A stretch of 64,000 nt of DNA from Paludibacteraceae bacterium. GTDB lineage: Bacteria; Bacteroidota; Bacteroidia; Bacteroidales; Paludibacteraceae. The stretch is from positions 1 through 64,000 of the forward strand of contig JAILLP010000020.1 in the NCBI GenBank assembly GCA_024693065.1, written 5' to 3'. Shown one piece after another: positions 43,887-63,950 of the stretch. Numbering within the stretch: the stretch's first letter is position 1; each line of letters opens with the position of its first letter. The position numbers were made by a program, and so were the translations under genes. The notes below the pieces were generated by a model. It was not told where the DNA came from. It did no database searches and worked only from the letters and a program-made list of their open reading frames with translations.

Positions 43887-44804
43887 ATGGCTGAAAAGTT
43901 GTCGGAGGGGGGATTATTATATCTAAAATTTATGACTGAGAACCAAGAGAGATTACGCAATAACCATCCATGTTTTGCCTCTAAACCGGGCAATCTGGGA
44001 AGGATTCACTTGCCTGTCAGTCCGGCATGTAACATCGGTTGCCGCTTTTGCAGCCGCGTGCTGAACGACACGGAGAACCGCCCAGGCGTTACGGCGAAGG
44101 TGATCAAACCGGAGGAGAGCATCGCCATCCTTAGAAAGGCGCTGAAGATATGTCCAGACATCAAAGTGGCAGGCATCGCTGGTCCGGGTGACACGCTGGC
44201 GACCGACACAGCTTTGGAGACCTTCCGCCTGGTGGGCAAAGAATTCCCACACCTGCTCAAGTGTATGAGCACCAACGGATTACTGCTCGACGAGAAGGCG
44301 GACCAAGTGATTGAGTCCAAAATCGATTCGCTGACGGTGACCGTGAATGCGATCGACCCTGAGATCGAGGCGAAGCTGAACAAGTTCGTCCTCTACCACG
44401 GGAAGAAATACGATGCTTACGAGGGCGCCAAGATATTGATCGAGAACCAGTTGAATGGTATCCGCAAGGTAGCGAAGAGTGGAATCACCGTAAAGGTCAA
44501 CACCGTATTGGTGCCACGGATCAACGGAAGCCACATCGAGCAGATCGCCAAGACGGTTTCCTCCCTAGGCGCCTCCATCTACAACATCATCCCGCTGATA
44601 CCGACCTACGAACTGAAAGACGAGAAAGCGCCTTTCTGCTTCGAGATCGAGGAGGCGAGGAAGAGCGCGGGGAAGTACATCGACGTCTTCCGCCACTGCA
44701 ACCGCTGTCGCGCGGACGCGGTGGGCGTGCCAGGCGTGAGCGAGTTCTCCAAGGAGGTCTATTCAGAAGATTTTGTAGTATCAGACACTTTTTCACATGG
44801 ATGA
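43887..44804 (+). CDS. NifB-like radical SAM protein
   Basis: Radical SAM CNIGCRFC; C-terminal CNRCRADAVGVPG as in NifB; start could be 43932. Confidence 0.85.
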   Translation: MAEKLSEGGLLYLKFMTENQERLRNNHPCFASKPGNLGRIHLPVSPACNIGCRFCSRVLNDTENRPGVTAKVIKPEESIAILRKALKICPDIKVAGIAGPGDTLATDTALETFRLVGKEFPHLLKCMSTNGLLLDEKADQVIESKIDSLTVTVNAIDPEIEAKLNKFVLYHGKKYDAYEGAKILIENQLNGIRKVAKSGITVKVNTVLVPRINGSHIEQIAKTVSSLGASIYNIIPLIPTYELKDEKAPFCFEIEEARKSAGKYIDVFRHCNRCRADAVGVPGVSEFSKEVYSEDFVVSDTFSHG

Positions 44805-45162
44805 CAAGAAACAGTACAACGCATTTCGAGTAGCGGCGGCCTCGACGGACGGATACACGGTCGACACACACTTTGGCAGAGCCACGGACTTCTACATTTA
44901 CCAGTTCTTCGAGGGAGAATGGGTCTATGTGGAGAGACGCACGGCGCCCCCGGTTTGTCAGAACGGAGTACACTCCAGGGACGACATGGAGAAGCGGGTG
45001 GAACTCTTCTCCGACTGCCAATACGTCACCGCGTCACGCATCGGAATAGGAGCCAGCGCCCTGCTGACACAGAAGGGGATCGTGGCGATGGCCTTGCCGG
45101 GCGAGCTGACCGACGCTTTAGACAAAATTTATTCTTACAACGAAATTCAAAACTTATTTTAA
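44797..45162 (+). CDS. NifX/NafY-type dinitrogenase iron-molybdenum cofactor family protein
   Basis: VAAASTDGYTVDTHFGRATDFYIYQ; overlaps NifB-like gene end. Confidence 0.8.
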   Translation: MDDKKQYNAFRVAAASTDGYTVDTHFGRATDFYIYQFFEGEWVYVERRTAPPVCQNGVHSRDDMEKRVELFSDCQYVTASRIGIGASALLTQKGIVAMALPGELTDALDKIYSYNEIQNLF

Positions 45163-45206
45163 TTATTCACCCGCCACATTTCGTGGCATAAAACAGTATA
45201 AGCACA

Positions 45207-61171: not shown

Positions 61172-61185
61172 AAAACACAAAAAAC

Positions 61186-62652
61186 ATGTCCATCAACTTA
61201 AACAACTCCAATGTGGCGGTACGTGAGAACCGTATCGGTTCCATCACCGGCTACATCGGATCATTAAAAGACTTAGCGGAGAAGTCGGAATGCGGCACGC
61301 TGAAAGGGTGCGCACGATGTTTCTCCCAATCCAGCACCTGCCTTTCGCTCTGTGGCTTGAGCCAATTGGCGGGTATCCGTGACGTGGCGATCATCCACCA
61401 CGGGCCTTCGGGCTGTTCGGTCACCAGTTCCATCAGTTATTACATGTCCAAGGTGATGTCTAAGAAACGTGGCGTCACCTCCGACACGGTCTATGTCGGC
61501 ACGGACATGAACGAGAAGGATACGATCTTCGGCTCCACCGAAAGCCTTCGGAAAATAATCTTGGAGACCAACCGTCGCTACCATCCGAAAGCGATTTTCG
61601 TCTCCAGCTCCTGCGCCACCGGTATCATCGGTGAGGACATCGACAGCATCGTGGACGATGTGAAGGCTGAGATCGAGGTGCCTGTCGTGGCGGTTCACTG
61701 CGAGGGCTTCAAGTCAAAGATCTGGGCGACGGGCTTTGACATCTCCGACCACGCCGTCCTGCAATCCATCGTGCAGAAGCCTCGTCCAGGGGTGAAGACG
61801 AACAAAATCAACTTCAAGAACTTCTTCGAGTCGGCTCGTCCTGAGATCATCGAGATGTTCAAGCAGTTCGACCTCGACCCAGTCTTCCTTTACTGCAACT
61901 CAACGGTAGAGGAGCTTTCGCACCTGTCGGAGAGCCTTGCCACCACCTGCATCTGCGGAACGTTGGGCAACTACCTGGGCAACGCCTTGGAAGAGAAGTA
62001 CGGCGTGCCTTACGTGCGCAGCATCAACCAGTGCGGCATCACGGGCTTCGAGACGTGGCTGCGTGAGATCGGGAAGGTTACCCACAGGGAGGATAAGATA
62101 GAGAAATACATTCAGGAGCAACGCGCCATCTACCTCCCTAAGATCGAGGAGGTGAAGAAGGAACTGAACGGACTGACCGCAGTGCTCGGCATGGGTCCGG
62201 GCTACACCTTCGAGGTCTCCAGAGTGCTGAACGAGCTGGGCATCAAGGTGGTTTGGGCATTGGCTTGGCACTACGACAAGAAGTACGAGAACGGAGACGT
62301 TCCACCGTCTATGAAGTATCTGTTAGACAACAACATAGACTTCGAGACATCGGTGGCCGACCAACAGAACTACGAGGTGATGAACATCCTCAACAAGTAC
62401 AAGCCAGACATGTACCTTTCCCGCCACCCGGGTTCCACCGTTTGGGCGATAAAGAACGGAACGCCAGCCATTTACGTGGCGGACGAATACATGATCTTCG
62501 GCTACAAACACACTTTGGAATTCGCGAATTCAGTACTTGACACGGTAAGGAACCGCAGTTTCGAGAAGAACCTCGCGTTGCGCACGAAACTTCCTTACAC
62601 GCAGTGGTGGTACGAACAGAAGGTTGATAAATTTTTTGAGGAGATAAAATAA
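61186..62652 (+). CDS. NifD-like nitrogenase component 1 subunit (module 2)
   Basis: HHGPSGCSVTSS, CATGIIGEDIDSIV, HCEGFKSKIWATGFD, CICGTLGNYLGNALEEKYGVP. Confidence 0.88.
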   Translation: MSINLNNSNVAVRENRIGSITGYIGSLKDLAEKSECGTLKGCARCFSQSSTCLSLCGLSQLAGIRDVAIIHHGPSGCSVTSSISYYMSKVMSKKRGVTSDTVYVGTDMNEKDTIFGSTESLRKIILETNRRYHPKAIFVSSSCATGIIGEDIDSIVDDVKAEIEVPVVAVHCEGFKSKIWATGFDISDHAVLQSIVQKPRPGVKTNKINFKNFFESARPEIIEMFKQFDLDPVFLYCNSTVEELSHLSESLATTCICGTLGNYLGNALEEKYGVPYVRSINQCGITGFETWLREIGKVTHREDKIEKYIQEQRAIYLPKIEEVKKELNGLTAVLGMGPGYTFEVSRVLNELGIKVVWALAWHYDKKYENGDVPPSMKYLLDNNIDFETSVADQQNYEVMNILNKYKPDMYLSRHPGSTVWAIKNGTPAIYVADEYMIFGYKHTLEFANSVLDTVRNRSFEKNLALRTKLPYTQWWYEQKVDKFFEEIK

Positions 62653-63950
62653 TGGCAAAGATATTAGACAAACAACGATACAAATGTGCTTTGGCGGCGA
62701 TGCAGACCGTCCAGGCGATAGACCGTGCCTGCCCCGTGCTCCATTCGGGTCCGGGCTGCGCGCAGAAGCTGTCCGACACGACAGGTAGTTCGGGCTACCT
62801 CTCTCCACAGATCTTCCCCTGCACATCCATCAACGAGAAGGATGTGGTCTTCGGAGGCGTGAAGAAGTTGGAGACCACCATCGCCAATGCGCTGAAGGTG
62901 ATCGACGCGGACCTCTACGTCGTCCTCACAGGATGTATCCCTGAGATTGTGGGCGACGATGCGGCGGAGATAGTCTCCCGATTCGAGGACGCTGACAAAC
63001 CGGTGGTTTTCGCACCCACGGCAGGCTTCAAGGGCAACAACTACAAGGGACATGAACAGGTGGTGGAGGCGATCGTCACGCAATACCTTCAAAAGTCCGA
63101 CAAGAAGCAGAAGGGACTGGTGAACCTCTGGGCGGACGTGCCCTACCAAGACCTCTTCTGGCTCGGCAACATCCGTGAGTTGGAGAACCTCTTGAGGGAG
63201 ATCGGTTTGACCCCCAACACTATCTTCGGCTACCAGCGAGGCATCGATAACATCAACAAGATACCTGAGGCGGAGTTCAACCTGCTGGTCTCCCCATGGG
63301 TGGGACTGAAGAACATGAAGACCATGGAGAAGCGGTTGGGCATTCCATACCTACACTACCCCGTCCTTCCGATCGGCGCCACCGAGACAGGCAAGTTCCT
63401 GCGTGAGGTGGGGAAATTCGCCCATGTCGACGAAGCGAAGGTGGAGGAGGTCATCAAGAAGCACGAGGATTACTTCTACTATCTGATCTCCCGCTACGCC
63501 GACCTCTTCTTGGAGAACCGTGTGATCAACAAGCAGTTCACGGTGGTGGCGGACGCCCAATACGCATTAGGCATCACCAAGTTCCTGGTGAATGATTTGG
63601 GACTGGTTCCAGCCAAGCAATTCATCACCGACGACACGCCCAAGGAGCATCAGGAGTTGATCGCGGCGGAGTTCCAGAGCCTCAACTACGGCATAAAGGC
63701 GGACGTCGCCTTCGAGACCGATGGGTTCAAGATCCACGAGGAAATCAAGAGCCACGACTACCACGGCTATCCGTTGGTCTTGGGCGGTTACTACGAGAAG
63801 GAGGTGACGGAGAAACTCAAGGGCAACTTCCTGAACATCTCATGGCCCGTGATGGACAAGGTAGTCTTCGACGATTTCTACGTAGGCTACACGGGAGGCA
63901 TCCGTCTGATCGAGGACATCTACACCGTAGCGGTGCAGCGTTTCAATTAG
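62652..63950 (+). CDS. NifK-like nitrogenase component 1 subunit (module 2)
   Basis: YKCALAAMQTVQAIDRACPVLHSGPGCAQKL, VLTGCIPEIVGDDAAEIV, TAGFKGNNYKGHE. Confidence 0.88.
   Translation: MAKILDKQRYKCALAAMQTVQAIDRACPVLHSGPGCAQKLSDTTGSSGYLSPQIFPCTSINEKDVVFGGVKKLETTIANALKVIDADLYVVLTGCIPEIVGDDAAEIVSRFEDADKPVVFAPTAGFKGNNYKGHEQVVEAIVTQYLQKSDKKQKGLVNLWADVPYQDLFWLGNIRELENLLREIGLTPNTIFGYQRGIDNINKIPEAEFNLLVSPWVGLKNMKTMEKRLGIPYLHYPVLPIGATETGKFLREVGKFAHVDEAKVEEVIKKHEDYFYYLISRYADLFLENRVINKQFTVVADAQYALGITKFLVNDLGLVPAKQFITDDTPKEHQELIAAEFQSLNYGIKADVAFETDGFKIHEEIKSHDYHGYPLVLGGYYEKEVTEKLKGNFLNISWPVMDKVVFDDFYVGYTGGIRLIEDIYTVAVQRFN

Follow-up and report, generated by a model that had tools for sequence, protein, structure and literature searches.

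A nitrogenase-like gene block among sulfur amino acid genes

The stretch of DNA analysed here (the window) comprises positions 1 to 64,000 of contig JAILLP010000020.1 of a Paludibacteraceae bacterium, a rumen member of the Bacteroidales whose 3.48 Mb genome is rated 100% complete. Its open reading frames (ORFs) include a block at 42806-63950, all on the plus strand, in which nif-like genes are interleaved with genes of sulfur amino acid metabolism. The block begins with cysK1, nifB, nifX1, nifH, nifX2, D1, K1, cysK2, a cystathionine gamma-synthase (CGS)/lyase-family gene, a methyltransferase gene and a ThiF/MoeB-type gene, and continues with genes for DsrE-like, TusA-like and porin-like proteins, metQNI, cysK3, D2 and K2. 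A first-pass annotation, made from the sequence alone, had proposed one NifB, one NifH, two NifX and two NifDK-like pairs, and ORF calls with NCBIfam and Pfam matches confirm all of these at the positions given below; we refer to the pairs D1K1 and D2K2 as modules 1 and 2.

The four D and K proteins, D1 (46581-48143), K1 (48180-49529), D2 (61186-62652) and K2 (62652-63950), are the only PF00148 proteins found by a search of the whole genome, and all four score far below every NCBIfam cut-off for Nif, Vnf, Anf, NifEN and Bch/dark-operative protochlorophyllide oxidoreductase proteins. Since the genome is rated complete, it contains neither a nitrogenase nor a NifEN, and a canonical nif system elsewhere in it is ruled out. 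NifB (43887-44804; 305 amino acids) corresponds to the radical S-adenosylmethionine (SAM) part only, with the NifX-like part encoded by a separate gene (TIGR01290, 254 bits against a cut-off of 344); it carries CxxxCxxC and CxxCRADAVG motifs and presumably makes the [Fe8S9C] cluster. The NifX-like proteins are presumed cluster carrier NifX1 (44797-45162; PF02579, 62 bits) and NifX2 (46101-46571; PF02579, 51 bits), which has a Gly/Cys-rich insert. The Fe protein (45207-46055) is of the NifH type, scoring 464 bits to TIGR01287, over the cut-off, and 485 bits to Clostridium pasteurianum NifH as against 296 to MarH, and it branches with NifH in the tree. It is encoded once in the genome and, being the only one, is presumed to serve both DK modules.

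Most of the remaining identities proposed in the first-pass annotation are borne out by profile matches. CysK1 (42806-43750) is a cysteine synthase A (TIGR01139, 446 bits, over the cut-off); its gene lies just outside the interval originally considered and belongs to the cluster, adding a third cysK to the two already recognised. CysK2 (50127-51104) is a CysK-family protein whose best NCBIfam match is cystathionine beta-synthase (CBS; TIGR01137, 342 bits, below the cut-off) and is a possible MccA, and the CGS/lyase-family protein that follows (51177-52334; profile search) is a possible MccB. Beyond these lie genes for an LCM-family SAM methyltransferase (52377-53204; PF04072), a ThiF/MoeB-type adenylyltransferase (53254-54057; PF00899, with NF004281 just over the cut-off), a DsrE-like protein (54062-54547; PF13686) and a 74-residue sulfur carrier (54608-54832) that we take to be TusA from its motif. 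A porin-like outer-membrane protein (55705-57099), named from sequence appearance and context, has no Pfam match. It is followed by a MetQ-like lipoprotein (57142-58026; PF03180, MetQ subfamily score below the cut-off), a MetN-like ATP-binding cassette (ABC) ATPase (58047-59117; TIGR02314, 377 bits, below the cut-off), a MetI-like permease (59104-59766; PF00528) and the CysK-family enzyme CysK3 (60188-61171), whose gene ends 14 nt 5' of D2. Just 5' of cysK1, at 39886-42512, are a kinase fused to an AraC-type helix-turn-helix domain and pdxS-pdxT-like genes, so that pyridoxal phosphate (PLP) synthesis genes, as read from the sequence, adjoin the PLP-dependent enzyme genes of the block. A scan of the window against Rfam matched no family.

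Relationships and active sites of the two modules

D1 matches Rhodospirillum rubrum MarD (9FMG_A) over its whole length with 609 bits (E = 9e-182, 55% identity), whereas no NifD exceeds 139 bits; K1 matches MarK with 487 bits and 49% identity, the best NifK scoring 67 bits. In maximum-likelihood trees D1 joins MarD and K1 joins MarK, with support of 100/100. D1 retains Cys66, Cys91, Cys158, Cys270, Gln74, His194, Trp195, Phe199, His375, Arg428 and His429 (MarD numbering, used throughout for D proteins unless NifD is named), and all six P-cluster cysteines are kept across D1 and K1. The Mar structure paper lists the cluster and pocket residues and proposes Arg428-His429 as a hallmark (PMC12552129), and all of the published hallmark residues are present. 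D1K1 is thus a methylthio-alkane reductase by sequence, tree and active-site residues, with D1 its predicted catalytic subunit, and by analogy would release methanethiol and a hydrocarbon from methyl thioethers. The window genome encodes two copies of MetY, and in relatives G004 and G019 a metY gene adjoins the D1 cluster; the gene content is consistent with a route in which methanethiol yields methionine and the CBS-like and CGS-like enzymes then make cysteine.

The MarBHDK precedent invoked in the first-pass annotation holds for the DK pair of module 1 but not for its Fe protein, which is NifH-type rather than MarH. Three relatives (G004, G019 and G030) have D1K1 without D2K2; a NifH-type gene lies directly 3' of K1 in G019 and G030, and the pairing of D1K1 with NifH is therefore independent of module 2. 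The NifH of G004 is 100% identical to that of the window. A plasmid-borne Mar-like operon of the Chloroflexota encodes a MarH-type Fe protein (501 bits, and by tree). In our view the catalytic component need not be paired with a MarH-type Fe protein to count as Mar, although the system departs from MarBHDK here. In the cluster of G004 (C6, locus L163) all other genes including cysK3 are kept and D2K2 is missing, which suggests that module 2 was lost there.

Module 2 is more distant. The best match of D2 is MarD (312 bits, 34% identity; NifD 119 bits) and that of K2 is MarK (370 bits, 41% identity). In the D tree the D2 clade, which includes a 47%-identical Treponema type, is the sister of Mar plus a Chlorohelix (Chloroflexota) protein, with support of 98/94, and the K tree is consistent with this; both D2 and K2 fall outside the Mar clade proper, so that the Mar-like sulfur role first suggested for the whole block stands as Mar membership for module 1 only. 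D2 retains the P-cluster cysteines and the equivalents of Cys270, Trp195, Phe199, His375, Arg428 and His429, and the K2 P-cluster cysteines are also kept. Throughout the sampled D2 clade, Ile replaces His194, Tyr replaces His376 and either Ser or Gly replaces Cys73, and in the part of the Mar pocket around S2B, Trp195 and His375 are kept while position 194 is Ile. An AlphaFold model of D2 (mean pLDDT 77) is closest to 9FMG_A (TM-score 0.81); nitrogenases score 0.63-0.71 and NifE 0.65-0.68. D2K2 thus forms a separate family, sister to Mar plus the Chlorohelix protein, with the same cofactor ligands and an altered pocket, and D2 is its predicted catalytic subunit.

A credible minority possibility is that D2K2 is a second Mar, acting on overlapping thioether substrates and releasing methanethiol: the clades are sisters, the ligands are the same, Trp195 and Phe199 are shared, and MetY is present in genomes that have D2 only. 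Against this, the substitutions of His194 and His376 are fixed in the sampled clade, the gene beside D2 is cysK rather than metY in 63 of 72 loci, and the D1K1 and D2K2 kinds coexist within one genome. The tree and the pocket residues favour different substrates for the two modules, one of two options that the first-pass annotation had left standing.

The same residues bear on nitrogen fixation. One or both modules could be unconventional nitrogenases, N2 fixation having been claimed for a Group IV enzyme in Endomicrobium proavitum, given that the Fe protein is NifH-type and that cysteine ligands and P-clusters are kept in both modules; it has also been argued that a missing usual histidine does not rule out fixation (Igai 2016, PMC4995403). 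We consider this very unlikely. The PF00148 search finds no NifEN in the window genome. Gln191, His195 and Gly424 of NifD are replaced in D1 and D2 by Trp, Phe and the Arg-His loop, a histidine being supplied by this Mar loop instead; Mar is reported to be unable to reduce N2 (PMC12552129), and the modules lie in a sulfur gene context.

Other D proteins were encountered in the course of the comparison. The Treponema type (L108, 18666-20129; L121, 13856-15322; 47% identical to D2) keeps the Arg-His loop, and its gene adjoins ABC transporter genes on the opposite strand. Some Clostridia have a third DK family, about 34% identical to D1, encoded 3' of nifX2 (L061 at 14230-16975, L062, L071, L086, L125 and others); its P-cluster cysteines and Cys270 are kept and the Arg-His loop is absent. 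The D proteins of loci L025-L048, from one family of the window's phylum (probably Chlorobi), lack two P-cluster cysteine positions and mostly Cys270, a ligand pattern resembling the published description of IsrD; with these cluster ligands missing, they were set aside.

Distribution, autonomy and links to cysteine

At least 570 D2 relatives were confirmed in a scan of named genomes. The best 80 share 82-99% identity with D2; their hosts are Bacteroidales, Treponema, Lachnospiraceae and further Clostridia, for the most part metagenome-assembled genomes from rumen or other gut sites, together with isolates. The usual gene order, cysK1-nifB-nifX1-nifH-cysK3-D2-K2-nifX2, extends across Bacillota and Spirochaetota. 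A cysK1 homologue of 82-86% identity is the first gene of most D2K2 operons in Clostridia and Treponema, and the 63 of 72 loci noted above have a CysK-family gene directly 5' of D2. With E-values down to 9e-182 and gene order conserved across three phyla, a chance match is excluded; the high identity of D2 across these phyla points to recent horizontal transfer. Both D1 and D2 types are present in family relatives of the window genome, and among 396 evenly drawn genomes of its phylum the window genome itself is the only one in which either type was detected. A search for phages with D2 as query found none.

Each module also occurs alone. In the isolates Lachnobacterium bovis DSM 14045, Lachnospira multipara LB2003 and Ruminococcaceae KHP2, D2 and K2 are the only PF00148 proteins and there is a single NifH. 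The alternative offered in the first-pass annotation, that module 2 is a NifEN-like scaffold maturing the D1K1 cofactor, draws on the resemblance to nifDKEN of a locus in which a single NifB and a single NifH accompany two DK pairs, and scaffold roles for linked DK pairs have been proposed (Dos Santos 2012, PMC3464626). D2K2 cannot, however, mature another DK pair in three isolates where it is the sole pair, and this refutes such a maturase as its general role. D1K1 is likewise the sole pair in three relatives, the tree separates D2 widely from NifE (21% identity), and its predicted fold is nearer to MarD than to NifEN; a scaffold role in the window is thus highly improbable.

Short ORFs with runs of Cys codons (e.g. 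MKNMMDRKLKQMCCMCCMCSTC...) lie within 400 nt 5' of the D2K2 operon at 13 of 53 loci, compared with 5 of 132 other genes (P = 7e-5), and the other listed cases likewise lie 5' of sulfur genes. At L086, L097 and L116 the leader is followed by a 12-bp stem with a U-run and then by cysK1, an arrangement typical of ribosome-mediated attenuation; a published analogue is the leader with Cys codons that precedes cysS (PMC8632094). The window has two candidate Cys-rich leader ORFs, both with similar ORFs in relatives, one 5' of cysK2 (49760-49954; ...CSICECCCRCCMPMC) and one 5' of the porin and MetQNI genes (55140-55322; ...CSMHCCCCRCCMPIC). A terminator scan around these two ORFs returned fewer terminators than in shuffled sequences, and the RNA folds have z-scores of -0.1 and -1.6; because neither terminators nor folds are significant near them, we propose no attenuator for the window itself, where cysteine-linked regulation is only suggested.

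A tRNA-Cys-like gene is present at some loci (L066, 6789-6860; L063, 4773-4844; L094, 6657-6728; L115, 6776-6847; and roughly 22 more in Clostridia); within the D2K2 operon it usually separates cysK1 from nifB. The anticodon is GCA, and once ACA. Covariation is seen in the acceptor and T arms, and one pair of the anticodon stem is never formed; CCA is not encoded, and the discriminator position holds A or G. The pattern occurs once in seven of eight genomes scanned, and ARAGORN reports no such gene in the window. Literature on tRNA-Cys or leader peptides in such operons offers analogous cases only.

The window genome lacks sulfite reductase (PF01077) and 3'-phosphoadenosine 5'-phosphosulfate (PAPS) reductase (PF01507), and sulfite reductase is absent from 22 of 25 other D2 host genomes. 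Both reductases are present in relative G016, whose seven PF00148 matches include genes of the nitrogenase type. Sulfite is therefore an unlikely product of D2K2, and this weighs on a further alternative, that D2K2 is a sulfite-releasing sulfonate reductase like the isethionate reductase Isr. Isr, likewise nitrogenase-like and C-S cleaving, has been reported from intestinal bacteria as well (PMC11423573), and NMT1/SsuA-type transporters lie near D2 in some Lachnospiraceae. Yet D2 keeps all ligands and is accompanied by a NifB, while IsrD is reported to lack the equivalents of Cys275 and His442 and two of three P-cluster cysteines (PMC11423573). Membership of D2 in Isr is rejected on these kept ligands, the comparison being with the published residue description of IsrD rather than by alignment, and an Isr-like activity is unlikely. 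At L087 (488-5800) and similar Lachnospiraceae loci an NMT1-type ABC transporter with a distantly SaoP-like permease and a DUF4418/FtsX/ATPase set lie 5' of the D2K2 operon; this transporter possibly imports the D2K2 substrate.

Proposed function and comparison with known systems

We think it rather probable that the block encodes two nitrogenase-like, ATP-driven C-S bond reductases, served by a common cofactor maker and a common Fe protein, which supply sulfur amino acids rather than fixing N2. NifB would make the [Fe8S9C] cluster and the NifX-like proteins would carry it, as their homologies suggest; conserved ligands suggest its insertion into both D1K1 and D2K2, and the NifH-type Fe protein, as the only one encoded, would pass electrons through the P-clusters of both. 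D1K1 would act like methylthio-alkane reductase, releasing methanethiol from small methyl thioethers; MetY, encoded elsewhere in the genome, would turn this into methionine, and the CBS-like and CGS-like enzymes would move the sulfur on to cysteine. D2K2 would free sulfide, or possibly a thiol accepted by CysK, from a different small organosulfur compound, with CysK3 and CysK1 fixing the sulfide into cysteine. The porin-like protein and MetQNI may serve as importers. We infer these reactions, substrates and products from sequence relationships and gene context, and for module 2 the CysK neighbours, the Cys-codon leaders and the missing sulfite reductase together probably indicate cysteine.

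Several points weigh against this interpretation. Sulfide is usually present in rumen fluid, and it is not obvious why a host there would spend ATP on an enzyme that releases it. Genus mates without a D1/D2 cluster also lack sulfite reductase, so its absence shows what the host cannot use and is not a specific correlation. Leader ORFs stand at only about a quarter of operon heads, the NMT1/SsuA-like transporters at some Lachnospiraceae loci would suit a sulfonate, whose cleavage is expected to yield sulfite, and CysK-family enzymes can take nucleophiles besides sulfide.

Gut Cluster III nifH sequences are 94-98% identical to Lachnospira and Butyrivibrio NifH, were detected among the European and Chinese subjects studied at frequencies of 11-32%, and have led to Clostridiales being read as candidate N2 fixers (Igai 2016, PMC4995403). 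The single NifH of L. multipara LB2003, a different strain from that cited in PMC4995403, pairs only with D2K2, from which we infer that much of human-gut Cluster III nifH reports the D2K2 system; some members of that nifH clade keep the nitrogenase histidine (PMC4995403), which qualifies this reading of the marker. The D2 clade varies little among gut Bacteroidota, Bacillota and Spirochaetota, and culturable hosts carry D2K2 alone. Counts of nifH in human and rumen samples may largely count D2K2, which touches on whether gut bacteria fix N2, and if its products include methane or ethylene it would be a candidate non-methanogenic hydrocarbon source in the rumen. Tentatively, and as a composite that as a whole we hold at slightly short of an even chance, D2K2 may represent an enzyme class of its own, in which a C-S reductase with a nitrogenase cofactor frees sulfide for direct cysteine synthesis, partnered by a NifH-type Fe protein, attenuated by Cys leaders and, in part of the family, accompanied by a dedicated tRNA-Cys-like gene. 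Gene transfer would have carried it among the gut bacteria of herbivores and humans, and most gut 'Cluster III nifH' would then denote sulfur scavenging and not N2 fixation.

In the open-access literature searched, which excludes subscription papers and most preprints, no paper was found that defines the D2 clade, ties this clade to Mar or demonstrates how it is regulated. Laterally transferred rumen 'NifEN-like' genes have been described from Prevotella bryantii and relatives (Inoue 2015, PMC4356463), and Cys275-bearing nitrogenase-like proteins adjoining cysteine synthase or O-acetylhomoserine sulfhydrylase were noted earlier (Dos Santos 2012, PMC3464626). These gene sets probably include the D2K2 family, and gut transfer and a sulfur link were already proposed there, but without a family definition, a link to Mar, or tests of autonomy or regulation. 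The Group IV nifDK of a termite-gut spirochaete (PMC13067680, 2026) is likewise a DK pair with cysteine synthase for which a sulfur role was raised in passing. IsrBHDK of Rhodobacter capsulatus shares nitrogenase-like C-S cleavage for sulfur assimilation, but differs in that Isr reportedly lacks the cofactor ligands, IsrB is unlike NifB, and the product is sulfite (PMC11423573). The closest known system is MarBHDK of R. rubrum (9FMG, 9D9U; PMC12552129), with which the block shares orthologous D1 and K1, the active-site residues, a NifB-type gene and MetY, and from which it differs in its NifH-type Fe protein, its setting among CBS, CGS and MetQNI genes, and a D2K2 that is just 34/41% identical with a changed pocket. 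Module 1 is thus a new member of Mar, and module 2 a further clade beyond the known sulfur systems of R. rubrum and R. capsulatus.

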